A stretch of DNA of 40,469 bases from an uncultured Bacteroidota bacterium (GTDB taxonomy: Bacteria > Bacteroidota > Bacteroidia > Chitinophagales > LD1): assembly GCA_903861145.1 (NCBI GenBank), contig CAIOTH010000076.1, positions 1 through 40,469 of the forward strand, in the 5' to 3' direction. The position numbers were made by a program, and so were the translations under genes. The notes beneath the pieces are model-generated. The model searched no databases and was not told where the DNA came from. It worked only from the letters and a program-made list of their open reading frames with translations. Below are positions 5,130-26,196 of this stretch, piece after piece (positions within the stretch are counted from its first letter, which is position 1; each line of letters opens with the position of its first letter).

Positions 5130-6947
5130 CTACTCCTTAACGATTGTAAATTCAACCCTACGGTTTAGCTTTCTTCCGTCGTCATTACCGTTATCGGCAA
5201 TAGGGAAGCTGCTACCCAGGCCCTGGAATTCAAGACGGGCGGATTCAATGCCGTGACTTATCAGATAATCGGCAACGCTTTGCGCACGGCCCATACTTAA
5301 CTTTTCGTTCGAAGCATCATTTCCAATAATATCAGTATAACCAATTATAAGTATATGAACACTTGGAAAACGTTTCATAAACGCGGTAAGCTCATCCAAC
5401 TGTTTGCGGCTTTTAGGCAACAAGCTAAATTTATTGTAATCGAAATAAATCCGCTCTAATCGGTACGAATTTCCTTTTACACTTTGCCCATTACCAAAGC
5501 TCTTCGTGGCCAAAACATCATCCGTTTCCTTCGACATCTTGTCAACTATCTTATTATACTCGCCCGGTTGAACATGTAACACCTGTGCGTTTTTAGGTTT
5601 CTGCGATTTACCCGTTAGCGTTTGTGGTTTTTCAGCACTTATCTGCTCCTCCTCCGCTTCTTTTTGCGCTTGCATACGCTCGCCTTTGCCTATAGGCCGT
5701 GGTAATGGACGTTTACGTTCTTCACTCTGCTCCTGCACATTAATGAGTTTTGCCAGCTGGTCAACTTTCTTTGCCAGGCTATCCGACATTCTTTGCTGAT
5801 CATCGGCCGCGGCACGTAGGCTATCGTTTGATTTTTGCAGCGCTTGTGTTTGCACCGAAGCACTATCTAAAGCCTGCTGTGCCGAATCGGCCTTAGCAGC
5901 TAAGGCCAGGCTCTCTTTTTGCATTTTAGCCAGTGAGTCTTTTTCTATCTCAATTTTCGACTCGTATTTTTTCTTCACCCGGTAATTGCTTGGTAAATGG
6001 AAACCCGCCGTGATTTCATGGGTAGAGCCCACCTGCCCGTTAATGGCCGGTTGCGTTGTATAATCATACGCATAAGCAATGGTAAACATGTTAAACACAT
6101 TTACCCCGGCCATACCTATTACGCCAAACGAGTTGCGATAGCCGCCACCCAGGAAAACAATATTTTTATAATCGAGCATGGCGGTGGCGTCAAACTGAAA
6201 ACCGGTGGCAGGCCCTTTGCGCATAAATAGCTGCGGTGTTATATTAAACTTGCCGTCGAGCAAGCTGATTTTGTATTGGGCAAAGGCAGTATAATGCCTT
6301 ACGTAAACATAATTGGCGGCCATACCGGGTACGGCGTAATTAGCCAAAGGCTGCAAAATATTAGGAATTGAAACGCCAACCAAAAGTCCCTTCCATTTAT
6401 ATCCCAAACCAATGTTCATATCAAACACCATTTTCATTGGTTTTTGCAATAGCAGACCGGGGTCGTTTAAATCGGTAGTAGTTGCACTACTAAAATCAAT
6501 ACGGTTGGTAAAAATACCGGCCTGCAGCCCTATCGAAATTTGGTGGTCTTTAGCAAACCTGAACTTTTGTGCGTACGACAATGCAGCATTGACTGTATTG
6601 AAAATCCCGATTTTATCATTTACTACGTAACCACCAATTCCAATCTGGTCTTTCCATAATGAAGCTTCGGCAGTGGCGCCACCTGTATTGGGATGGCCGG
6701 GCATATTACCCCATTGTGTACGATAAAAACCAAACGCCCTATACTCATTATCAATACCGGTAAAGCCGGGGTTAATTAAATATTTATTGAAAAAATAAGA
6801 ACTGTAAACCGGTATTTGCTGGCTGTAAACCTGCATGCTTAACAAAGCAAACAAAAGCAATAAGCACGGCCCCGCTATGCCCGGAAGTAATTTACCGGTG
6901 CGAATAGTAAAGCGTTTGAGATTAAGTAAATCGTTTTTCATGCTCAA
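5130..6947 (-). CDS. PorP/SprF-family T9SS outer-membrane protein fused to OmpA domain
   Basis: The 605 residues start with an N-terminal extension and signal sequence (cleavage near residue 42, VYSQ; Met3 is an alternative start). A PorP/SprF beta-barrel follows (about 44-330), with IPVYSSYFFNKYLINPGFTG and an early YRTQWGNMPG, typical of the family. Residues about 335-400 are a Ser/Asp/Gln-rich coiled coil. The end (about 495-605) is an OmpA-like peptidoglycan-binding domain: YFDYNKFSLLP, GYTDIIGND, NEKLSMGRAQSVADYL and a terminal NRRVEF. It starts 5 bp after the giant adhesin gene, so the two are almost certainly cotranscribed. SprF homologues are needed for secretion of SprB-type adhesins. 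The OmpA tail would tie the adhesin's export or anchoring site to the cell wall, which is inferred. Confidence 0.88.
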   Translation of the reverse strand: MSMKNDLLNLKRFTIRTGKLLPGIAGPCLLLLFALLSMQVYSQQIPVYSSYFFNKYLINPGFTGIDNEYRAFGFYRTQWGNMPGHPNTGGATAEASLWKDQIGIGGYVVNDKIGIFNTVNAALSYAQKFRFAKDHQISIGLQAGIFTNRIDFSSATTTDLNDPGLLLQKPMKMVFDMNIGLGYKWKGLLVGVSIPNILQPLANYAVPGMAANYVYVRHYTAFAQYKISLLDGKFNITPQLFMRKGPATGFQFDATAMLDYKNIVFLGGGYRNSFGVIGMAGVNVFNMFTIAYAYDYTTQPAINGQVGSTHEITAGFHLPSNYRVKKKYESKIEIEKDSLAKMQKESLALAAKADSAQQALDSASVQTQALQKSNDSLRAAADDQQRMSDSLAKKVDQLAKLINVQEQSEERKRPLPRPIGKGERMQAQKEAEEEQISAEKPQTLTGKSQKPKNAQVLHVQPGEYNKIVDKMSKETDDVLATKSFGNGQSVKGNSYRLERIYFDYNKFSLLPKSRKQLDELTAFMKRFPSVHILIIGYTDIIGNDASNEKLSMGRAQSVADYLISHGIESARLEFQGLGSSFPIADNGNDDGRKLNRRVEFTIVKE

Positions 6948-6952
6948 TAGTT

Positions 6953-9900
6953 TTAGCGCGGTGCATCCACTATGTTAATGTCTCCTTTATAAACTGCGTT
7001 ATTTTGACTTGGTACTTTAAGTATATAGAAATACGTGCCATCAGGCAGTTTCTTTCCATTCCGCTGATCAATACCTGCCCACTCGTTGTTATAGTCGGTT
7101 GATGTATAAACTACTTCCCCCCAGCGGTCAAAAATTGTAACCACAGCGTCCGGATATTTAATCAGATCAATCTTCCACGTATCGTTAACACCATCACCAT
7201 TTGGCGTAATTGTGTTTGGCAACTCGGGCAAATCAAGCACATCAATATAACCGGTGTATTGTACAAAGCAGGCCTTATCAAACGAGTCCATAAATATTGT
7301 TATGGTATAAGTTTCGCTTACCTGTGGTTGTATTTGCACCCATGTATTGGTGTTAACTATATAAGGCACCGGTGGTGAGAAAACAACCGTCCATGGATTA
7401 GCATTCATTTTTGTAAAGTTTGCATAACTGCGATTAGTTAGAATTATCGAATCGCGTGGAAGCAACGAATCATTCAACCAAACCCTTCCATCAATCGAAT
7501 CAGGCTGGCCGATAGAAATATCCAAAGTGTCTTTACAATTATTAGCATCGGCAACTATAACCTGGTAGTTATTTGCCGAAAGGTTATAGAACACATTATA
7601 AACCTGTGGCGCGCCTCCGTTTAAGCTAAATGTGTAAGTGCTACGGTCGGCCGGTAACGGATAAATTTTGATAACGCCACTGTTGGCATCGTAACATTGA
7701 ACGCTATCAACCACAATGGAGTCACGAGAGGGTACAAACGGCGGAATATTTACATCCAAACTATCCAAACATCCATTACTGTCAATAACAGAAACCACAT
7801 AACTACCGGCACCCAGGCTATTGAAAATATTGCCCGATTGCGAAATCGAATTGCTGGTAGTAAGGTTAACGAGGTTATAAATGTACGACGGCGTTCCACC
7901 TATTGCCGTTACGTTTAAAACAGCATCAGTTCGGCCAAAGCAGGTAATACCCCCTTGTAAAAGATTGCTATCGATTAGCAACGAGGTGGGCTGGCTAAGG
8001 CTTGCTGCAAAAGTAGTTGAGCAGCCAAATGAATCGGTAACTATATAATTAGTGCTACCCGCTGCAAGGCTATCAAACTGAATTACTGATGTATCAAAGG
8101 TTACTCCATTTACCGAGAATGGGAGTACCCCATTGGACATAGTTATAACCGTTTGACCGTCGTGTGAGCCATTGCATTTCGGATTTACGGTAGCAATGGT
8201 ACCGTTTAGCATGCTACCTGCAGAAATAGTAAACAAAACCTGTTCCTGGCACCCAAGGCTATCGCTAACAAAAACATCATAGCTGCCAAGCGCACCGGTA
8301 ATGGTAACCGTATCATAGTAATTATACAAGGCACCAAAGTAAACATCGTAAGATGGGACCCCACCGGTAGTAGTTAACAACACCGAACCTGTTGTTGCCG
8401 AACACACAGTTGAATGCGGCGTTACGGTTGTTATCATAGTATCCGGTTGCCATAAACTAAACGAATCCACATATAGGCAACCACTTTGGTCGCTTACGGC
8501 AAAAACATTATTACCGGGATAAAAAGTATACTGGTTAAACTGGTTAATACCATTGTACGGTGGGTAACCACCCGTAACATTTAAACTGCCATTAACAGAC
8601 CCGCCATGGCATTTAATACCACTGCCGCTATCAATAGAGACCGTAAAGCTTATGAAGTTTTGAACGATGTTAAAATAAATGGTGGTATCGCAAGCGCCGT
8701 TTGATACTACAACGTTATACTGCCCGGGAGAAAGATTACCAATTGAATCGGCGGAAGAAACAAAGTTATTAAACTGATCGAACCACTGAATGCCATAGAA
8801 GCCGATGTTTTGTGGCGTTGTAAAATCTATTTTGGCACTACCATTGTTGCCGGTGCAGGCATTAAAGGTATCTACAAAAGCCGTAAAGCCGTTGGCCGAA
8901 TTGATCGTAAATGAACCGGTGTCCTGGCATTGGTTATTATCGGTTACAGTAAAAGTGTAATGGCCTGCTGCCAGGTTATATACATCCGTTCCAAAGCCAT
9001 GTTGGCCCGTATTAAGCGAATACGAAAACGGATAAGTACCCCCGGTAACGTTAATATAGATGGAACCGTTATTACTCTCATTACTGCAAACAGTTGGACT
9101 GGCACTACCGCTATCAGCTATTAAAGTATCGGGTTGCGAAACTGAGAAACTGACTATTACCGGACAACCACTTGCATCGGTAACTGTATCCTGATAAGTG
9201 CCATAAGGATAACTGAACTGGCCGGTGCCGTTGTAGGGTGGCACACCACCGGTTGCCGCTACTGAAACCTGTGCCTGGCCACCATAGCAAGGTACTTGTT
9301 GAACTATTGAGCTTGTAGCCGACATTGGCAAGGGTGCAAAAACGGCTGCTTGCACGGTGCTACTGCAACCGCCTAAATTGGTAACGGTATATGTATAGAA
9401 GCCCTGGCCAAGGCTATCGAAGGTGTAGGTTGAGGCAAATTGATTGCCATTAACTGTAAATGGCCCTGTAGTGGTGCCGGATACTATTGAAATAGTTATG
9501 GACCCATCATGGCTGGCGTAGCAAACGGGATTTGCTGAAGTTGCTTGCGCAACAATGCCGGAGTCCGGTTGCACGTTTATACTAACTGAAGTATTGCAGT
9601 TATTGGCGTCGTAAATATTAAGGGTGTAAAAACCAATTGAAACGTTTACAATAGAAACGGAGTCGTTATAATTATAGCCATTGCCCTGGAATGAAGTTGA
9701 GTACGGCTGAACCCCACCGTTTGTGGTAAGCTCGATTGTAGCACTGCTATTAGCTGCACAACCAGGAGGTGTAACAGAATAGCCTGCGTTTAATGGCAAC
9801 GGTTGCCATAAAGTAACGTCCTGGCTTGCAGGGCAGCCTTGTGCATCCTGCACGGTTACGGTATTGGTACCGGCATAAAACTGGTAACCACCGGTACCGC

Positions 9901-12900
9901 TAAAGTCGCCGTTACCACCACTAGCATAAACGTTAACAAAAGCAGCACCGCCATTGCAAAATATTCCATTACCGGTATCAACAGTAATAGTTATAGGTGT
10001 AGCAGGTTGGGTAATTAGGAAGGTTGAATCGTAAGTACAACCGGTGGCCGTTGTAATGGTAACCGAATAAGTACCGGGAGTTAAATTCTGAATATTATTA
10101 TCTGTGATATTGCCGTTACTCCAGCTGTAAGTTATCGGCTGTGTGCCACTGGTAACTATTGCCTGGGCTGAGCCACTGGCATCGCCGTAACACAAAACAT
10201 TTGCGGTGGTAACGTGGGCTCTAATTGTATTTAGCGTTCCAATGGTGGCCTGGTAACCGTTAATGCAGCCAAGAGAGTCATAAACCTCGAGAAAGTAGCT
10301 GCCGGGAGGTAATTGAATTGTATCGGCATAGTGATATGTTTGTGACTGGTTAGTATAATACACCGTATAAGGCGGAATGCCACCGGTAGTTGTAATTTGA
10401 ATTGACCCATTGCCATGCGCGCAGCCCGAACTGGTAGTTGTTATTGTACTATACACAGGCGTAGGTGCCGTAAGTGTTATGGTATCAACTATACCGCAAC
10501 CGGTTTGGTCGGTAACAATGTAAAGCTGCTGGCCGGGGTATTGTTGAAACGAACCTGTGCCGTTGAATGGCCCGAATGAACCGGTTGCAGATACATTTAC
10601 CGTACCATAATCGAAATAGCATTGTATGCCGGCCCCGGTATCAACGGCAACCGCAAGATCGGTACCAGCCGTAAAAATAAGGAAGCTAATAACCGTATCG
10701 CATCCCTGGTCATCGCTGATTGTGACACTATAGTCGCCCGGTGCCAGATTGTTTATTACGGCATTTGATTGATTAATTACGTTTCCGTAGTAAGACCATA
10801 TATAGGATATACTGTTACTATAAACATCTGTTACCGTAGCGTACGCAGCACCCGAATTGGCCCCCGTACATGAATTGATAGGTGTAACCACAGGTTGCAA
10901 GCCATTGGTATCGGCTATATAAATACTACCCGTATCAACACATTGATGCCCGTCCGTTACTACATACGAATAATAACCGGGCGCAAGGCCGTAAGCATAA
11001 GCTCCCGTTTCCTGGTTACTCCAATGAACGCCGTAATTAGGAGTCCCCCCCTGAATGTATAACTGCGCGTACCCGCTATTACCCGAACATGAGGAAGGGT
11101 TAATGTTATAGGCAACCGTTGTTAACGTATCGGGTTGGCTGATGCTGAACGTTGAAGTAATACTGCAACCTGAATTATCGGTTATGGTAACCGAATAAGC
11201 ACCGGTAGCAAGATTGGCAACAACCTGAGAATCGGGGCCGGGGCCCGATGGATAATTCCAGTTGTAGTTGATGGGTTGATTGCCCTGGTATATAGTTACG
11301 CTGGCCGAACCCGAGGAAGTGCCATAGCACAGAACATTGGTTTTAGAAACCGCAGCATTTAAAGTATGTACCGAGTCGATATGAACCGAACCACTACCCT
11401 GGCAGTTGTTGGCATCGGTTATTGTAAAATCATAAGTGCCGGCTGCAAGGTCGTTGCGCAAAAAGCCGGCTCCTTCATCACTCCATAAAATATTTAATTG
11501 CCCCGTACCACCGGTGGCGTTTACCTGGGCACTACCGTTAGCGGCGCTACAACCCGCCCTGGTAACGTTAACAACCTGGAATATGATAGAGTCTGGCTTA
11601 ACTAATGTAACAGTTGAGGAATCGGGGCAATTGAGGCTATCAGTAATTACATACACATAATTGCCACCCTGCAGACCAGTGGGATTAAACCCGGTTGCTG
11701 CGCCATTATGCCATTGTATTTGGTAAGGTGTATAGCCTCCACTTACGGTTAAGGCAATAGAACCATCGCTGCTATAGTAACAAAGCGGATTGTGGATTGT
11801 ATCCAGCACGGAAAGGGGAAGCTTCTTGTTATTTACAAAAGTTAAGGTATCGGTACAACCATTGCCGGCATTCACTATAATCCAACCCGGTCCCTGAGGT
11901 AGTGCATAGGCGTTGGAAGAGATTTCGCCGCTAGACCAACGATAATGATACGGCGGAAGACCGCCGGTTGGATATGCAATACCCGCACCAAGCAAACCAG
12001 GGCCACATGGTAGCGCATTGATAGCTACGGAATCGTGAAGGAATCGAATGGTATCGGTTAGTGTGAGCGGACAACCTGGAAAATTGCTATCGGTAACTAT
12101 AACCGTATACACACCGGGCTGGGTTACATATAAAGTAGAATCGGTACTCCCATTGTTTGTCCAGTAATAACTATAGGCCTGCCAGGGGCCATAAATCAGC
12201 CCAATACTTATTAAGCCTCTACCGGTGCAAAGCGAAGGGTCGTTAAATAGCAAAGCGCCTACGCCATCCGCACTGGAATCAGCAATCAACGTTCCGCAAC
12301 GGCCTTCATCAGTTTGATTTTGTATAATAACAGACTTTATGTGTACCTCGGACAAAGGCCAAATACTATCCAAAGTCCACGTTTGATCTGAACTGGCTGT
12401 AAAATGAATTATTTTGGTAAAATATTGAGTAGCTCCGCCCCACGATACGTCGGTAATCACTATCGTTTCGGAATAACCACCTAAGGACAGAAAAACGGCA
12501 GGATCGACGAAAGCAGTAAATATACCTTGAGTATAACCGTGGCAATTGAAATTAAGCTGTAAGCCAATACGCGGAACCGGATACCAGAAAATATGGCCAG
12601 TGTCAGAATTGCACTGTTCCATATTTAAATATATGCTGTAATTGCCACCAGTAATACTGTCAAGATGTAACGGTACTACAACCTGCTGTCCATAATTCGA
12701 AAAAGGAAAATTTATGGTATCGCCGTTAGGCCGGGTAAGAACGTAAAACCACTTGTTGGAACCATCAAAACTTGGGCAAGCGCCACCAAATGTTGAATTT
12801 ACAATCATGGCACAATGGCTGGTATCAATACTTAATACAGACGTAATACCAACATTTACAGCATTCCATGGCAACGAAAAGCTGACCGTACATCCGGCAG

Positions 12901-15490
12901 TATCACTTATATTAAAGTATGCTGTAGCAGGGCACGAATCCAATGAAACACCTCTATAATCAATTGTGTATGGTGCGCCTCCGCCCTGTGGCAGGATAAT
13001 GGTGTTCCAATCGGGTTGAATACCGCAGAAGGTGGTTACCATAGGCACCGATGGAACGCGCAGCACATCAAATTTGCCATACAACTCGCGGCTATAACCC
13101 AATGAATCTGTAATCTTGTTCCAATAGAGAGTGCACAGAGATGTATCTATCAAAGTAGTATCACCGTTACTCCACAATACCTTTATTGGGGGGCAGCCGC
13201 CTACATTATCAATATCAACCTTGGCTACGCCGTTACATTGATTGGGACAGGCATTTTTTATTGGAATTAAACTTTGAAACTGCAGTTGCCCGGCGCAATT
13301 GCCGTTACCACCGCCGCCTCCACCGCCATGAGCATGGCCTCCCCAACCCAAAGTATTAAAGCGGTTAGAAACACCGTTTGATGTAACCTCGGGGCAAGGT
13401 AAAAGCACTGTGTCGTTGGTAAGGAAAGTTCCGCCTATGGTATCGTTTCCGTAATTGTAGAAGGAAGTACCAACCATGTCAACTATAGGCATTTCAATAA
13501 TGGCAACATCTAACCCAAAATCATCGGTCGAGCTACCAAAGTAGGTAGACCAAAAAGAATTTTGCTTTTTATTAAGCCCCAACATGATACCATCAAAACC
13601 CGCACCGTTGATATTGTTTTGAAGATAGAATATTAGCGGATCGCCGGTTACCGGCAACTGGCCGTTAGAGAACCCGGTAAAAATGGTATTGCAATTAGCA
13701 TCGGTAACAAATTTGGTAAGCGCATCGTACCCGGCGGAACCGTAATAGGTACCATATACCTGCTGATAGGTGTTTGGATCGAAGGCCGCAATAAAACCAT
13801 CGCTTCCGCCCCCAACATAATTTGATTGGTAATAGTTGCCATTGCCCTGATCCATTACAGGTATACTATCTCCATTGGTTTTGCCGCATATCATCAACCT
13901 GCAGGCATTACGTACTATACAACTGGATATATCATTGCCCTTGCCGCCATAATACGTGCTCCAATCAAGCACTCCCGTATCGGCAAAATGAACAACAAAC
14001 GACTCCGTCTTTTGAAAAGTAGTTTGATAATAAGCGGGGCCGTTAGATACTAAAGGAATTGAGGCACCGGTAATAGAATCAGAATAACCGGTTGCATAAA
14101 TGCCACTGCCATCTACCCAAATCGAGCTAAAAAAATCATCACCCGAACCACCGAAGCAAGTAGACCAAATACGGTTGGCGGCGGTGTCAAACTCCAACAA
14201 AAACGCATCGCTTCTTGTAATAGTAGAATCGTGATAAAAATATGCGTTGGTATTTATGGAATCGGTAAAGGTTGGGAAGTTACGCGAATAAGTATATCCG
14301 CCCACGTAAATAAGGCCGTTATAGTATTTTACATCCAGCGCCTCATCAACCTTACTCCCTCCATAACCGGTTGACCAATACAATAAACCTACTGAGTTAA
14401 GCTTTACAATAAACGCATCGCGGCTGGTTAAAGATACCGGGCGATTATAGGTTCCCAGCGTGGCTTGCGGAAAATCCCACGACTCAGAATAACCCACAAC
14501 AAAAATACCGGTAGGCGTAGCTGCTATCGCATTAGCCTGGTCGTTGCCTGAACCACCAAAGAAAGTTGCCCAAACCAGATTTTGATTAGGGTCGGTTTTC
14601 ATAATTACCGCATCCTGTGAACCGCCATCGGGATTGTCCATAACATACGAACCATACACTTCGGGGAAAGTAGGCAGGTGATAATCGCTTGAATAACCAA
14701 CGGAGTAGGTATTTAAAGAATCATCGGTGGTTATTGCCGAAAAAGAAGTGAGGGTAGGGATATCAAAGGGAAGGCTCCAATCTAGTTGTAAAGGCGGATC
14801 AATAGTAAATCCACCTTTCTTTAATTCATCGCTTAGTTGATAGGAAATATCGTTACCCTTAACGTTAATCTGCCCTGCCAAATCTTTTTGCCGGGTTTTA
14901 TAAACTACGGGGCCCTCTCTTAACCTGAAATTTTTGTTTACATACTTTAATATATCACCACCACTTTTATCAATATCGGCACCGTTAACAGTATAATGAA
15001 TTACCGATGCATCGGCGCCCGCGTTAACCATAAAATCGTGATTAACAGCACCTTTGTTATCAATTGTCCAAAGCCAATCAATACCGGGGTAGATATTTTT
15101 AATGACAATCGTTTTACCACTTTTTACGCCCGTTAAAACATTGGTGCCCGGGCCATAAATATTGATGGGGGCATTTTGTGCGCCTACAAAAATTACCTGC
15201 TCTTTACTAATGGTGGCTTTGTCAAATTTAAAATCAATCTTATTATATGTAGTGGCAGATTTACCCGTATTGCGTACAATGGCCGAAAACCCCGTTGAAG
15301 TAATATATAGCTGAAGCGGCCCCCCTTTATAAAAGAGAACATTATCTGCCAACGTTCCTTTTTCGGTTTTTACCTGGCCGCGGTTTTCAATAAATATATC
15401 ATCAAGTTTGCTTTGGCTTACCGCCAACGAATGAAAATACCCGGCAAGGAATATAGCAATACATAGTATACGCGGGTACAATTGCTTCAC
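6953..15490 (-). CDS. Giant SprB-like adhesin with type B T9SS C-terminal domain
   Basis: The protein has 2845 residues. It starts at GTG 15490; an in-frame TAA lies just upstream and no ATG is available. After a signal peptide (1-25) comes a DUF7948-like region opening DIFIENRGQVK. A beta-propeller of SBBP type (about 240-700) shows six blades marked WSTYFGG-like motifs (for example WATFFGGSGNDQANAIA). A Gly-rich linker with HAHG (about 715-728) leads to about 20 SprB-like repeats, each with paired Cys and a TDxxGC ending. The C-terminus (about 2757-2845), with TITPNGDGVNDTWKI, VTIFDRWGEVVY and KLPDGTYFYIL, is the gliding-motility-associated type B sorting domain. It should be exported by the T9SS and displayed as a long filament, with the adjacent PorP/SprF partner. 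Involvement in gliding or adhesion is likely but not shown here. Confidence 0.92.
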   Translation of the reverse strand: MKQLYPRILCIAIFLAGYFHSLAVSQSKLDDIFIENRGQVKTEKGTLADNVLFYKGGPLQLYITSTGFSAIVRNTGKSATTYNKIDFKFDKATISKEQVIFVGAQNAPINIYGPGTNVLTGVKSGKTIVIKNIYPGIDWLWTIDNKGAVNHDFMVNAGADASVIHYTVNGADIDKSGGDILKYVNKNFRLREGPVVYKTRQKDLAGQINVKGNDISYQLSDELKKGGFTIDPPLQLDWSLPFDIPTLTSFSAITTDDSLNTYSVGYSSDYHLPTFPEVYGSYVMDNPDGGSQDAVIMKTDPNQNLVWATFFGGSGNDQANAIAATPTGIFVVGYSESWDFPQATLGTYNRPVSLTSRDAFIVKLNSVGLLYWSTGYGGSKVDEALDVKYYNGLIYVGGYTYSRNFPTFTDSINTNAYFYHDSTITRSDAFLLEFDTAANRIWSTCFGGSGDDFFSSIWVDGSGIYATGYSDSITGASIPLVSNGPAYYQTTFQKTESFVVHFADTGVLDWSTYYGGKGNDISSCIVRNACRLMICGKTNGDSIPVMDQGNGNYYQSNYVGGGSDGFIAAFDPNTYQQVYGTYYGSAGYDALTKFVTDANCNTIFTGFSNGQLPVTGDPLIFYLQNNINGAGFDGIMLGLNKKQNSFWSTYFGSSTDDFGLDVAIIEMPIVDMVGTSFYNYGNDTIGGTFLTNDTVLLPCPEVTSNGVSNRFNTLGWGGHAHGGGGGGGNGNCAGQLQFQSLIPIKNACPNQCNGVAKVDIDNVGGCPPIKVLWSNGDTTLIDTSLCTLYWNKITDSLGYSRELYGKFDVLRVPSVPMVTTFCGIQPDWNTIILPQGGGAPYTIDYRGVSLDSCPATAYFNISDTAGCTVSFSLPWNAVNVGITSVLSIDTSHCAMIVNSTFGGACPSFDGSNKWFYVLTRPNGDTINFPFSNYGQQVVVPLHLDSITGGNYSIYLNMEQCNSDTGHIFWYPVPRIGLQLNFNCHGYTQGIFTAFVDPAVFLSLGGYSETIVITDVSWGGATQYFTKIIHFTASSDQTWTLDSIWPLSEVHIKSVIIQNQTDEGRCGTLIADSSADGVGALLFNDPSLCTGRGLISIGLIYGPWQAYSYYWTNNGSTDSTLYVTQPGVYTVIVTDSNFPGCPLTLTDTIRFLHDSVAINALPCGPGLLGAGIAYPTGGLPPYHYRWSSGEISSNAYALPQGPGWIIVNAGNGCTDTLTFVNNKKLPLSVLDTIHNPLCYYSSDGSIALTVSGGYTPYQIQWHNGAATGFNPTGLQGGNYVYVITDSLNCPDSSTVTLVKPDSIIFQVVNVTRAGCSAANGSAQVNATGGTGQLNILWSDEGAGFLRNDLAAGTYDFTITDANNCQGSGSVHIDSVHTLNAAVSKTNVLCYGTSSGSASVTIYQGNQPINYNWNYPSGPGPDSQVVANLATGAYSVTITDNSGCSITSTFSISQPDTLTTVAYNINPSSCSGNSGYAQLYIQGGTPNYGVHWSNQETGAYAYGLAPGYYSYVVTDGHQCVDTGSIYIADTNGLQPVVTPINSCTGANSGAAYATVTDVYSNSISYIWSYYGNVINQSNAVINNLAPGDYSVTISDDQGCDTVISFLIFTAGTDLAVAVDTGAGIQCYFDYGTVNVSATGSFGPFNGTGSFQQYPGQQLYIVTDQTGCGIVDTITLTAPTPVYSTITTTSSGCAHGNGSIQITTTGGIPPYTVYYTNQSQTYHYADTIQLPPGSYFLEVYDSLGCINGYQATIGTLNTIRAHVTTANVLCYGDASGSAQAIVTSGTQPITYSWSNGNITDNNIQNLTPGTYSVTITTATGCTYDSTFLITQPATPITITVDTGNGIFCNGGAAFVNVYASGGNGDFSGTGGYQFYAGTNTVTVQDAQGCPASQDVTLWQPLPLNAGYSVTPPGCAANSSATIELTTNGGVQPYSTSFQGNGYNYNDSVSIVNVSIGFYTLNIYDANNCNTSVSINVQPDSGIVAQATSANPVCYASHDGSITISIVSGTTTGPFTVNGNQFASTYTFDSLGQGFYTYTVTNLGGCSSTVQAAVFAPLPMSATSSIVQQVPCYGGQAQVSVAATGGVPPYNGTGQFSYPYGTYQDTVTDASGCPVIVSFSVSQPDTLIADSGSASPTVCSNESNNGSIYINVTGGTYPFSYSLNTGQHGFGTDVYNLAAGHYTFTVTDNNQCQDTGSFTINSANGFTAFVDTFNACTGNNGSAKIDFTTPQNIGFYGIQWFDQFNNFVSSADSIGNLSPGQYNVVVSNGACDTTIYFNIVQNFISFTVSIDSGSGIKCHGGSVNGSLNVTGGYPPYNGINQFNQYTFYPGNNVFAVSDQSGCLYVDSFSLWQPDTMITTVTPHSTVCSATTGSVLLTTTGGVPSYDVYFGALYNYYDTVTITGALGSYDVFVSDSLGCQEQVLFTISAGSMLNGTIATVNPKCNGSHDGQTVITMSNGVLPFSVNGVTFDTSVIQFDSLAAGSTNYIVTDSFGCSTTFAASLSQPTSLLIDSNLLQGGITCFGRTDAVLNVTAIGGTPSYIYNLVNLTTSNSISQSGNIFNSLGAGSYVVSVIDSNGCLDSLDVNIPPFVPSRDSIVVDSVQCYDANSGVIKIYPLPADRSTYTFSLNGGAPQVYNVFYNLSANNYQVIVADANNCKDTLDISIGQPDSIDGRVWLNDSLLPRDSIILTNRSYANFTKMNANPWTVVFSPPVPYIVNTNTWVQIQPQVSETYTITIFMDSFDKACFVQYTGYIDVLDLPELPNTITPNGDGVNDTWKIDLIKYPDAVVTIFDRWGEVVYTSTDYNNEWAGIDQRNGKKLPDGTYFYILKVPSQNNAVYKGDINIVDAPR
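7990..9132 (-). repeat. SprB five-repeat block, second copy (W-V-X-Y-Z)
   Basis: Inside the giant adhesin, five successive SprB-like repeats occur in this order, with recognisable subtype motifs: W (SPTVCSNESNNGS), V (FNACTGNNGSAK), X (SGSGIKCHGGS with GYPPYNG), Y (STVCSATTGSV with TTTGGVPSY), Z (NPKCNGSHDG). The same order occurs at 10000-11140. Confidence 0.6.
10000..11140 (-). repeat. SprB five-repeat block, first copy (W-V-X-Y-Z)
   Basis: The order matches the later copy: W (NPSSCSGNSGYAQ), V (NSCTGANSGAA), X (DTGAGIQCYFDYG with FGPFNGTG), Y (SSGCAHGNGSIQ with TTTGGIPPY), Z (NVLCYGDASGSAQ). Another X-Y-Z set (DTGNGIFCNGG, PPGCAANSS, NPVCYASHDGS) and a lone X (VPCYGGQAQ) lie between the two blocks. 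Confidence 0.6.
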
Positions 15491-18704: not shown

Positions 18705-19193
18705 ATGAAACGTAGAATCCCTGCCATTATTTTAATTGCGTTTTTTGGCTTCCTATCAAGCAGTGCACTGGTGCCCGAAAGTATTGAGAAGGTAGATATA
18801 ATGTTGGGACATTTTTTACTTCAATCGTGGCCACAAGCACATCGCATTATTAATATTGAAGTAGATGCCGCTCTTCCACCCGATACCCTGGTTTTTCATG
18901 CCATCGGCACTAAGGATGGACTAAGGCAATCGACGATAGAGATAAAAGATATGTCGGGGAATAACACTATTCAGCAACTTAACTGCTGCACCAATAGCAC
19001 TGCCGATAATGATGCCAGTTTTATTTATGTACTGAACCAAAGTAACCTGGGCAAAATAAAAGAACAGGGCTTTAGGGTAGTGCTTAACAAACATCATGAT
19101 AACGGGAATGAAATTCGCAGCATGGTAGTAATTATGCTTGACAAAAAGGAACCTGCCGTTACAGATGCAGAGCCTTCTCTCCTACCCCGGTAA
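18705..19193 (+). CDS. Small exported protein, paralog 1 of three, unknown function
   Basis: The protein has 162 residues if started at the ATG at 18705, which puts a signal peptide (MKRRIPAIILIAFFGFLSSS) at the N-terminus; the frame extends 12 codons upstream but only to a TTG. The mature part is predicted beta-rich and shares a core with the next two genes: PPDTLVFHA, then DGLRQSTIEIKDMSG, then ASFIYVLNQSN and FRVVLNK. It lacks a lipobox Cys. The next paralog starts 69 bp downstream on the same strand. I do not recognise the family. It could be a periplasmic or secreted small beta-sandwich protein. Exported location is fairly sure; function is unknown. Confidence 0.72.
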   Translation: MKRRIPAIILIAFFGFLSSSALVPESIEKVDIMLGHFLLQSWPQAHRIINIEVDAALPPDTLVFHAIGTKDGLRQSTIEIKDMSGNNTIQQLNCCTNSTADNDASFIYVLNQSNLGKIKEQGFRVVLNKHHDNGNEIRSMVVIMLDKKEPAVTDAEPSLLPR

Positions 19194-19262
19194 ATACGCT
19201 CGCCTTTTGGTATAAAGTTTGTGTAAATTACGTGTTCAACGCACGTATTCAACTACAGGCTT

Positions 19263-19697
19263 ATGCAAAAACTGAGTTTATATTTCATATTGGCCACGTG
19301 TTTTGTTTCTGTTAGTTGCTTTCTGCCGAAGCCGGATGAGTTGGATAGGGTTTTTGTGTACCGCAATAGCAAGCTGGTGGGCGCATGGCGGGCTGATGAG
19401 GGGCAGATAGTTCACGTTGATAATGTTGCTAATGGAGACACATTGATATTTAAAGCGCGAACAGACCTTGGTGGCCTGGGAAACTCAAGCATTGATATAA
19501 AAGATGACACCGGAGTGCCGGTTGATAATATTCAAAGCCCCGGGAGTAGTTCAGAGGCCGCGGATTTTATTTATGTGGTTAACCTTAAAAAAATTGATAT
19601 CGGCAAGGTAATGTCGTTACAGGTTTTTTTGAATGTAGACCCGGCGCGAAATTTACCACCGCCTACCGTTGCTTCAATTTCATTCATAAAAAAATGA
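19263..19697 (+). CDS. Small lipoprotein, paralog 2 of three, unknown function
   Basis: The 144 residues start with a lipoprotein signal ending SVSC (Cys19). The mature part follows the shared pattern: ELDRVFVYRNSKLVGAW, GDTLIFKARTD, GLGNSSIDIKDDTG, ADFIYVVNLKK, LQVFLNVD. It is the only one of the three with a lipobox, so within the set it is probably the membrane-attached form. Its stop overlaps the start of the third paralog (ATGA, 4 bp), indicating translational coupling. No enzyme motif is apparent. The family is not one I can name. Confidence 0.75.
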   Translation: MQKLSLYFILATCFVSVSCFLPKPDELDRVFVYRNSKLVGAWRADEGQIVHVDNVANGDTLIFKARTDLGGLGNSSIDIKDDTGVPVDNIQSPGSSSEAADFIYVVNLKKIDIGKVMSLQVFLNVDPARNLPPPTVASISFIKK

Positions 19698-20140
19698 GGA
19701 TGAAAAGGCTTTTACATTTATTACCGGTGTTATGTTGCTTACCCATGTTAAGCCATGCCCAGTTTGCCTGTGCAGGTTTAGACCGGGTTGATATTTATGT
19801 AAATGGCAAACTGATAGCCACGGCCACACCAGCCGATGCGCCAACAGTTAAACTTGACGCATCTTCAAAAAGCGATACTTTGCTTTTTCATGCATATACA
19901 AGTTGGGAGGGATTACGTAATAGTACGCTTGACATAAAAGACGACGTGGGTGAGTTGATAGGCCACGCAAATAGCAATAACAACAATGGTTATGAGGCCG
20001 TGTTAAGCTACGTTTTAATACGAGAGGAGTTAGATGAAGCCGAGGCCAAAAACCTCGATGTTTTCCTTAACCTGCTATGCGAACGTGATGTGGAACCGGA
20101 ACAGATTTGCACAGTAAGTTTGAATACAGTTCACCACTAA
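19694..20140 (+). CDS. Small exported protein, paralog 3 of three, unknown function
   Basis: The 148 residues carry a signal peptide ending LSHAQ (about residue 23); ATG at 19700 (Met3) is an alternative start. The mature part shares the family core: GLDRVDIYVNGKL, SDTLLFHAYTSWEGLRNSTL, DIKDDVGELIG and LDVFLNLLC. It has extra cysteines near both ends (FACAG, LLCERD, EQICTVS) that could form disulfides in the periplasm or outside the cell. The 4-bp overlap with the lipoprotein gene suggests the two products are made together. ettA begins 73 bp downstream but is a housekeeping gene and probably unrelated. Function unknown. Confidence 0.74.
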   Translation: MRMKRLLHLLPVLCCLPMLSHAQFACAGLDRVDIYVNGKLIATATPADAPTVKLDASSKSDTLLFHAYTSWEGLRNSTLDIKDDVGELIGHANSNNNNGYEAVLSYVLIREELDEAEAKNLDVFLNLLCERDVEPEQICTVSLNTVHH

Positions 20141-23429: not shown

Positions 23430-26090
23430 CTATTTCACCAGTTGTTTCAGCGCAGCAATATCATTCAACATCTGTTGCTGCTGAGTGGCATATTGTTGTA
23501 GCTGGCTTTTAAGCGTAGCGTTTTCGGTTTGTACAGCGTTTAGTTGCGTGCTAAGTTCCTGAACAGATTTTACCAAAGGCACTACAAATTCTGAATAGCC
23601 TAATGAGTACAGGCCATGGTCGTTAACCGGTTTGGTAACACCGCTAAAATCGTAGTTGGTTTGATTGGCGGCCTGCTCAACTTCCTGCGCAATAAAGCCG
23701 GTCATGCGTTGTTTTTCAAGGTCGTATTTTTCGGGCCAGCTTAAGTCGTTTTTATTTTCAGGATTTACAATAGCGTTTTCGGCGTGCAAATCAAAATTGT
23801 AGGTAACGGGGCGAAGACGATTTATAAAATCAAGGCCGGGCACATCTTCGCGCACGTTGGTTTTAATGCGGGCATCGCTGTATTGGTGCCAGGTGGTTTG
23901 TCCACCAATCCATGCCATGCTGGTGTTACCAATAAAGGCCTGGTTACTGGCACCGTTCAAAATATCGTTGTTGCCAATGCTTATAGTATTATTCTGGGCA
24001 CCGCCGCTGGCGTATACACCGGCCCCAAAGCCAATAGCCACATTCAGCGTTCCGCTGGTTGTATAATAACCCGCCTCGTAACCCAGGGAGGTATTTTCGG
24101 CACCACTGGCTTGTATCATAGCTTCATAACCCACTGCAGTATTGAACTGCGCGCCCATGGTATTGTTCATAGCTGCATAACCTATGGCCACATTGCGTGT
24201 GCCAATTGAATCTACCCCCAAAGCCTGGGTGCCCATTACCGTGTTGTAGCTGCCCGAGGTGTTTCCAAATAACGCATACAAACCAACCGCCGAATTATAC
24301 GAACCGTAATTATACTGCAGTGCATCTACGCCAACCGCGGTGTTCCATATACCGGTTGTGTTATACTGCATTGCATTAACACCAATGGCCGTGTTAAACC
24401 CACCGGTGGTGGTACGTTGCAAAGCAGCTGCACCAAAGGCACTGTTATCCTGGGCAGTAGTGTTAGAGTAAAGGCTGCCGTAACCCACCCCGGTATTATA
24501 AAGCCCGGTGGTATTACCATAAAGTGCTAATTGCCCCAAAGCAGTATTATACGACCCATTGTTATTTACCAGCGTACCGGTACCTATGCCGGTATTCGAC
24601 CCACCGGTAGTATTGGCCACCAACGAGTAATAACCCACTGCAGTATTATAAAAACCGGTGGTGTTATTTTGCAGGTTGTTTGCACCTATCGCAATATTAG
24701 AGCCCCCGTTACCGTGCTGGCTGAATAGTGCAGAGTCGCCAATTGCAATATTGTAGTATCCAACATCATCACTGCCTAAAGCGCCATTACCCCATCCAAT
24801 ATTTGTCGAGCCGGTTTCTGCAATACCTGCGCCGGTACCTAAAAAATAATTATGGTTCGCAGGGTCTAATAAACCTGAGGCGGCGTTGTTAATTTGAAAG
24901 CGCAAGGGTTGAGCATCGGTGGTGCCTATAAAATTAGCAGCAGTGGTGCCCGCATTGCCGGTAAGCTGCCATGCATTTGCACCGCTATCGGTGGTAGGTA
25001 TCCACGCAGTTCCGTTCCATTTCAGTATTTGCCCTGTGTTGGGATTTGTGTTGCTTATTGCATTGCCCTGCAAGCCCACCACGGTTGGGTTAGGGTAGGT
25101 TCCGGCCAGGTCTCCGCCGGCATTGTCCAGTGGGCCGGTTGGTCCGGTAATACCAGTGGCACCGGTGAGCCCGACCCCGGTACTACCTGTTGCCCCGGTT
25201 AAGCCCGTTGCACCGGTGTGGCCGGTAGCACCCGTTGCGCCCGCCAGGCCTGTTGAACCTGCCGTGCCCGTTGCGCCCACTGTGCCCGTTGCGCCCACTG
25301 TGCCCGTTACACCTACCGAACCCGTTGGGCCTGTAATACCTGTTGGCCCCGTAGCCCCACCACCTATACCGGTACTGCCGGTACTACCTGTTGGCCCGGC
25401 GGGACCTGTTGCGCCACCGCCGCTACCTGTATTACCCTGCTGCCCGGTAGGGCCGCTTGCACCGGTGTTGCCGTTGGTGCCTTGTGCGCCGGTATTGCCC
25501 TGCTGGCCGGTTGGGCCGGTTGCACCTGTATTACCGGTGGCTCCCTGTACACCTGCACCAGTGTTGCCCTGTATGCCTACACCGGTAGGGCCGGTTAGGC
25601 CCTGCGGCCCCGTTGGGCCGGTTGAACCACCACCGCTACCCGTCGCGCCCGGCACCCCTGTAGGCCCCGTTAAGCCGGTTGCCCCCGATGGCCCCGGCGA
25701 GCTATTGCCGGCAAACAAAGCATAAGGCACACTTTGCAATTGCGAGGTGCCCATATCAGTATATGTTCCGGTGTTGTTGACATCGGTTTCAACCTGCAAA
25801 AATTTGAGGCCTCCGCCCCAGCTTATTGAACCCAGCGAAGCTTCCCTGCCAATAACCACGGCGCACAAACCAAACTGGTTGGCCGAGGTTGTATCAATCT
25901 CAGTATAAACCGGGTTACCTGTTGCAGTGCCATCGTGAATGGTAAACCTGAATTTAACCGGTGTGCCCTGCGCAATGGCATTACCAAGGCCGTTACGAAC
26001 CACTGCCTGATAATTAATTCCCTGTGGGGCCTGTGCAGCCAATTGTATGGCGCAACAAACCATTACGAACAAGTGTATATTTCTTTTCAT
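23430..26090 (-). CDS. Collagen-like fibre protein with S74 intramolecular chaperone
   Basis: The protein has 886 residues if started at ATG 26090, which yields a signal peptide ([20 protein letters not shown]); the frame is open further upstream but without merit. An N-terminal domain starting [14 protein letters not shown] (20-127) is shared with the protein at 1-3028. Gly-X-Y collagen-like repeats run from about 128 to 320. About 14 head-type repeats (YNTAVGxxALxxNTTG) fill about 410-725. A C-terminal S74/endosialidase chaperone begins [12 protein letters not shown] (about 737) and includes RPVTYNFD and [11 protein letters not shown] coiled coil ends the chain (about 845-884). In phage tail spikes this domain drives trimer folding, then cuts itself off at the Ser of the SD motif. 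No T9SS tail is seen. A trimeric cell-surface fibre is the likely product. Confidence 0.88.
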
Positions 26091-26115
26091 GAATGTAAAG
26101 TTATGGGTGGTAATG

Positions 26116-26123
26116 CAAAAATA
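26116..26123 (-). promoter_or_regulatory. -7-like element before the collagen-like/S74 gene
   Basis: On the minus strand TATTTTTG fits TAnnTTTG and lies 26 bp before the ATG at 26090. I do not see a well-placed -33 TTG, so support is partial. The region 26091-26332 is shared with the divergent LytTR gene. Confidence 0.3.
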
Positions 26124-26167
26124 TGTAAGCAAGATAAATATTTGAAGGGAGAAACGCAATGCGGGAT

Positions 26168-26196
26168 CAATACCGTTTAACGCAAAGGAATACAAA
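26168..26196 (+). repeat. Truncated ACGCAAAG-type repeat
   Basis: AATACCGTTTAACGCAAAGG followed by AATACAAA matches the two ends of the longer copies at 22681 and 29634, without the middle part. It lies in the divergent promoter region between the S74 fibre gene and the LytTR gene. Confidence 0.55.

Follow-up and report, generated by a model that had tools for sequence, protein, structure and literature searches.

RhoGDI, PDE6D, and UNC119 are eukaryotic, cytosolic proteins, and the Wzt carbohydrate-binding domain belongs to an ABC transporter ATPase. In RhoGDI, PDE6D, and UNC119, a lipid group is taken up by a hydrophobic beta-sheet cavity, as described in a published account (PMC6219514). 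These proteins were the closest solved folds for both models obtained from a tandem trio of small genes in the window (the whole stretch of 40,469 nucleotides that was analyzed, from an uncultured Bacteroidota bacterium), but they have no detectable sequence similarity to the trio, and the TM scores were ~0.4. The Wzt domain resembles the second gene product of the trio in being a beta-sandwich but is ~14% identical to it. Literature searches found nothing on the family or on bacterial GDI-like folds, which does not imply absence from print; among the matches listed for the GDI-like fold, no title concerned bacterial proteins of such a kind.

The trio is proposed to have originated through tandem duplication and to encode exported, single-domain binding proteins that are expressed together and have divided their specificities among them, a reading to which we give, taken as a whole, an even chance. 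The paralogy of the genes, their order, the recurrence of the triplet, the signs of purifying selection, and the lack of an acceptable library match are observed, and the export signals and the beta-sandwich fold are predicted.

Three adjacent paralogous genes

Copy 1 (positions 18705 to 19193, + strand) encodes 162 aa, with a hydrophobic N-terminal signal followed by the shared domain. Copy 2 (19263 to 19697, + strand; 144 aa) has an N-terminal signal that includes the lipobox-like motif SVSC (Cys19), and copy 3 (19694 to 20140, + strand; 148 aa as listed) carries Cys26 and Cys129. The motif LDRV-x-x-Y-x-N-x-KL is present in copies 2 and 3. The other motifs are found in all three, as DTLVFHA, DTLIFKA, and DTLLFHA in copies 1, 2, and 3, respectively, then as GLRQSTIEIKDMSG, GLGNSSIDIKDDTG, and GLRNSTLDIKDDVG in the same order, and later in the sequences as VVLN, VFLN, and VFLN. 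A preliminary description of this DNA had listed these shared motifs, and all were found in the protein sequences. It had also claimed adjacent paralogous genes of 162, 144, and 148 aa; the genes are co-oriented, and their paralogy was borne out by BLASTP (pairwise E values of 1e-9 for copies 1 and 2, 3e-21 for copies 2 and 3, and 2e-13 for copies 1 and 3) and by shuffling. The mature parts of the three pairs gave local alignment scores of 97, 107, and 171 versus shuffle means of ~28; for every pair, 0 of 1000 shuffles matched the observed score, and the highest shuffle reached 52. When copy 2 was searched against the genome of the window (E ≤ 1), the three places of the trio were the only matches. 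The C-terminal tail of copy 1 is ~13 residues longer than that of its two 147-aa orthologues. On these sequence comparisons, the tandem trio is a set of diverged paralogues of one exported-type family.

N-terminal signals and the start of copy 3

All three copies have a hydrophobic N terminus (15-residue hydropathy of 2.0 to 2.3), and signal peptides are predicted from this hydropathy and from a reading of the sequence. The signal types assigned earlier were thus upheld for the hydrophobic N termini of all copies and, for copy 2, held in part. SVSC (Cys19) of copy 2 in this genome fits the lipobox pattern, as in bacterial lipoproteins, but the pattern is absent from all three copy 2 orthologues (G001, G009, and G010), being present in one of the four copy 2 proteins; the other 10 proteins from the genus lack it. 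A conserved lipid anchor of copy 2 was therefore rejected, and the claim that one of the three forms is membrane anchored did not survive the comparison with the orthologues. A lipid anchor private to copy 2 of this genome is possible.

The letters ATGA (19694 to 19697, + strand) place a possible, probably unused start of copy 3 over the stop of copy 2. The orthologue alignment places the start of copy 3 at its second ATG, 19700 (146 aa), and in G001 and G009 copy 3 begins 2 bp past the copy 2 stop, a spacing that is equaled here by a start at 19700. From this alignment, ATG 19700 is likelier than 19694 to be the true start of copy 3. The ATGA letters noted earlier do exist, but as a gene overlap they probably represent a wrong start, given the orthologue alignment and the 2-bp gaps.

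The pair Cys26 and Cys129 is kept in four of four copy 3 proteins, before the first and after the eighth strand, and no copy 1 or copy 2 protein has both cysteines together; copy 1 of G001 has a lone Cys127. This pattern points to a possible Cys26-Cys129 disulfide in copy 3, and Cys26 falls in a low-confidence part of the copy 3 model.

Occurrence in the genus and signs of selection

The trio profile matched 5 of the 30 genomes of the window's family (E ≤ 0.01), all of them among the 18 genomes of the genus; the other 13 genus genomes, some of which are incomplete, gave no match at this threshold. Weak fragments obtained with a later joint profile in G016 and G013 (E values of 2.5e-4 and 0.009, respectively) were left uncounted. 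The recurrence of the triplet, a question raised in the preliminary description, was observed in two further genomes of this genus, G001 and G009; both keep the order of the three copies, which are separated by 78 to 79 bp and 2 bp. G008 retains, where a contig ends, copy 3 and the last part of copy 2, with a gap of ~7 bp, and G010 has one copy only, which groups with copy 2 on the tree.

The copy 1 clade (c1) and the copy 2 clade (c2) were each supported at 100/99, and since each is a clade, their duplication is deduced to be older than the split of these species. Support for the copy 3 clade (c3) was just 37/37. The NG86 dN/dS values for G001 versus G009 were 0.167/1.32 (c1), 0.162/1.41 (c2), and 0.145/1.20 (c3), giving ratios of ~0.12 per copy from one genome pair with a dS above 1, the other pairs being saturated or not computable. 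In this one genome pair, each copy shows signs of purifying selection. The ABC-F proteins of the triplet carriers are 92 to 95% identical to that of the window. The carriers thus look like near relatives, and the co-retention of the copies may be simple descent.

The wider family in the order

A first wider search gave weak matches (E values of 3e-6 to 3e-4) in four genomes of another family, f20, whose proteins formed the four rows of alignment A3. The A3 profile matched 19 of 298 genomes, namely, 17 f20 genomes, the window's genome, and G001. Since it returned window copy 3 (E of 1.2e-6) and G001 (7e-4), the link between the genus and f20 is reciprocal. Further alignments were made of the genus group (A2; 11) and of the wider f20 group (A5; 19), together with a joint profile of 30 rows (A4). 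The hhalign comparison of A2 with A5 (probability of 97.5, E of 5.3e-12, 148 columns) indicated whole-domain homology.

Of the 396 genomes searched in the order, 45 matched the A4 profile at an E value of ≤0.01. Strong matches (E < 1e-25) came from 33 genomes: 5 belong to the genus, and 28 belong to f20. The f20 genomes had one strong match each, and 19 of the 28 had supplied profile rows. The other 12 genomes gave short fragments (E values of 2e-4 to 0.009) and were left out of the count. In the class-level search, 14 of 247 genomes matched, including the window's and one f20 genome. The real-looking matches were those of G510 (5e-41), G440 (1e-24), and G919 (4e-8), and the other nine were weak. 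G919 gave a further match on another contig (7e-6) and may hold two copies. Across 395 genomes of the phylum, the A2 profile matched the window's genome only. Judged from these searches, which score part of the candidates so that misses are possible, the family appears sparse and mostly single copy and, as far as searched, tripled in this genus alone.

The f20 proteins of A5 share with the trio a length of ~150 aa, a hydrophobic N terminus, an N-terminal xDxxxIYLNNKL strand, and a KDxxG motif, but they differ in being represented by one strong match per genome. In the joint alignment, the trio lacks their invariant Cys, Arg, and Tyr, and it is therefore deduced to be a separate subgroup.

The preliminary description had proposed a multi-subunit exported assembly, in which the trio would be subunits of one hetero-oligomer. 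Consistent with such an assembly, three genomes maintain the three diverged copies in one order, the dN/dS values of the copies are similar in the single measured pair, and the trio stays intact while its neighbors change (see below). However, copy 2 stands alone in G010, the wider family is mostly single copy, and the trio has no conserved membrane anchor. From the lone copy 2 and the mostly single-copy family it is deduced that the domain need not have siblings, which disfavors an obligate trio, and the hetero-oligomer is considered unlikely.

Searches for described families

The trio had been described as belonging to no recognized family, and this was confirmed in that searches of Pfam, NCBIfam, PHROGs, PADLOC, and, by sequence, the PDB gave no acceptable match. 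For copy 2, DUF6287 (E of 0.002 over 19 residues) was below the family's cut-off and was rejected; for copy 1, phrog_20576 (E of 0.0037 over 33 residues) was rejected as a weak partial match. The PDB sequence searches gave no match below an E value of 0.05, and an RTX protein matched by copy 3 at 0.055 was rejected because the alignment was loose; the other PDB searches had nothing below 0.1. A Pfam scan of the 30 A4 members (E ≤ 0.1) returned 15 families, with a best E value of 0.002 and each in at most two members. The RhoGDI/PDE-delta Pfam models were absent both for the three proteins (E ≤ 10) and for the 30 members (E ≤ 0.1). HMMER discards most weak matches at its filter steps, so any remote relationship to RhoGDI, PDE6D, and UNC119 may have escaped detection. 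A pattern search of genome contigs yielded 264 stretches, one of which was a relative (L016), and the 137 pattern stretches from viral contigs included no relatives. Plasmids gave no match to copy 3, and the copy 3 model matched nothing in the viral structure library at an E value of ≤0.001.

Predicted fold

Copies 2 and 3 were each modeled as a beta-sandwich of nine strands. In the copy 2 model (11 sequences; pLDDT 82.7, pTM 0.73) the nine strands follow the signal helix, and the copy 3 model (4 sequences; pLDDT 76.8, pTM 0.70) has nine strands and a short helix. Foldseek searches of the PDB with copy 3 gave 47 matches at an E value of ≤0.001, all of them UNC119 or PDE6D entries. The best had an E value of 4.7e-5, a TM score of 0.40, and an rmsd of 5.9, and the matches listed had query TM scores of 0.38 to 0.46 and rmsd values of 5.3 to 6.5 Å. 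Copy 2 gave none at this threshold, its best match being PDE6D (1.4e-3), followed by PDE6D mixed with many antibodies. For copies 2 and 3 together, the PDE6D and UNC119 matches listed had TM scores of 0.33 to 0.46 and rmsd values of 5.3 to 7.3 Å. In VIA-align, where the best Z score is typically 7 to 8 for models with no clear match, the best match to copy 2 was RhoGDI (Z 9.1; 3.3 Å over 114 residues). The others included a phage tail tip (Z 8.9), translocon/OST chains (Z 8.9 and 8.5), antibodies, and Wzt carbohydrate-binding domains (Z 8.3 and 8.2; 2.9 Å over 101 residues for the match of Z 8.2).

The likeness to RhoGDI, PDE6D, and UNC119 is thus a weak, repeated lead from two models that were built on overlapping alignments. 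At TM scores of ~0.4, membership in this fold is unproven, and a common fold alone is no demonstration of function. If the likeness held, the trio might be exported carriers of hydrophobic ligands, the sandwich holding an acyl or prenyl chain such as that of a lipoprotein or a secreted lipid. The uniformity of the 47 copy 3 matches and the placing of PDE6D and RhoGDI first for copy 2 speak for such carriers. The TM and rmsd ranges given above, the mixed VIA-align list of copy 2, the missing RhoGDI/PDE-delta Pfam match, and the lack of a PDB sequence match below 0.05 speak against them, and we regard them as improbable. It is very unlikely, as judged from the models, that a bacterial exported branch of RhoGDI/PDE6D/UNC119-like carriers was tripled here and moves lipids or lipid-modified proteins through the periplasm. 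The presence of Wzt domains among the better copy 2 matches would suit modules that bind carbohydrates or surfaces and are released into the medium. This possibility is highly doubtful; the proteins have no attached enzyme domain, no CBM family was matched, and the five window neighbors that were scanned are not carbohydrate-utilization genes.

Proposed origin and role of the trio

For the favored reading of co-expressed binding proteins with divided specificities, we hypothesize that an ancestral family gene, elsewhere mostly single copy, was duplicated in tandem within the genus lineage. By spacing alone, the trio is probably one transcription unit. Its products would be exported (periplasmic or secreted) single-domain proteins with a predicted Ig-like beta-sandwich, each most likely serving as a small soluble envelope binder of a ligand or a protein partner. 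The three copies would be subfunctionalized, with different specificities, yet would remain co-produced. Neither a ligand nor a partner nor an enzyme motif was identified for the trio proteins.

An exported Bacteroidota family that has no name in the libraries searched is thereby defined, with two subgroups (A2 and A5), and its lineage-specific triplication is a real but modest expansion. If the lipid-carrier-like fold is true, the trio would be a candidate for periplasmic lipid or lipoprotein carriers; if it is not confirmed, the trio would be an ordinary small gene-family expansion.

Genomic neighborhood

The trio of the window lies between a T9SS-type sorting-domain protein and an ABC-F-like ATPase, and that of G001 and G009 is flanked by an arylsulfotransferase-like gene on one side and a TauE/OmpA block on the other. 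Contig C140 of the window's genome carries the series UbiA-methyltransferase-OmpA-TauE without the trio. In G001, a gene pair, one member of which is nitrilase-like by eye, lies ~2.5 kb upstream of the trio; in the window, this pair is ~15 kb downstream. The window and G001/G009 have different flanks around the trio, which is therefore deduced to have been held together through rearrangement. The ABC-F gene is present in 16 of the 18 genus genomes. At the 15 other ABC-F loci (flanks of ~1.5 kb, some cut by contig ends), tblastn detected none of the window's other neighbors beside the gene, with the exception of two short stretches of the T9SS-cargo C terminus. A mobile element carrying the trio is not claimed, as rearrangement was seen but element ends were not found.

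A link to the arylsulfotransferase as a mechanism was dropped because that gene adjoins the trio in G001 and G009 but was not seen next to it in the window. Arylsulfotransferase-like matches at an E value of ≤1e-60 (L108 to L125) numbered seven in G000, five in G001, one in G008, six in G009, and one in G014, and the other 13 of the 18 genus genomes had none at this threshold. The genomes with such matches are the four with the trio or a remnant plus G014, a pattern which the relatedness of the carriers may explain.

The loci of the distant relatives bear on a further alternative, that the trio is the envelope output of a sensing pathway, the relatives being targets of an adjoining LytS/LytT-type two-component system. 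A LytS-type histidine kinase and/or a LytTR regulator was located within ~1.5 kb in 5 of 29 relative loci (L025, L026 [L026/L034], L027, L036, and L079, in families f20 and f23), and the single genus g90 accounts for three of these five loci. However, by motif or by eye, the other 24 loci have neither in that flank, and inspection of the ORF lists by eye revealed none near the trio in the window, G001, or G009 or near the G008 remnant; this alternative is given a low probability. As to promoters, the Bacteroidota-type pattern occurred 0 times in the window versus 2.75 expected, and sigma-70-like sites in the window were at chance level.

Several other frames were noted. After the lone copy of G010, a DUF6855 protein is encoded (L016, positions 6495 to 6902; Pfam E of 2e-70). 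In the window, positions 6953 to 15490 (− strand) contain a 2845-aa frame with many short repeated modules, the C-terminal end of which we take, by eye, to be of the gliding/T9SS type. A 921-aa frame at positions 23430 to 26195 has collagen-like GATGPTG repeats, and its C-terminal part is presumably, by eye, like a tail-spike intramolecular chaperone.
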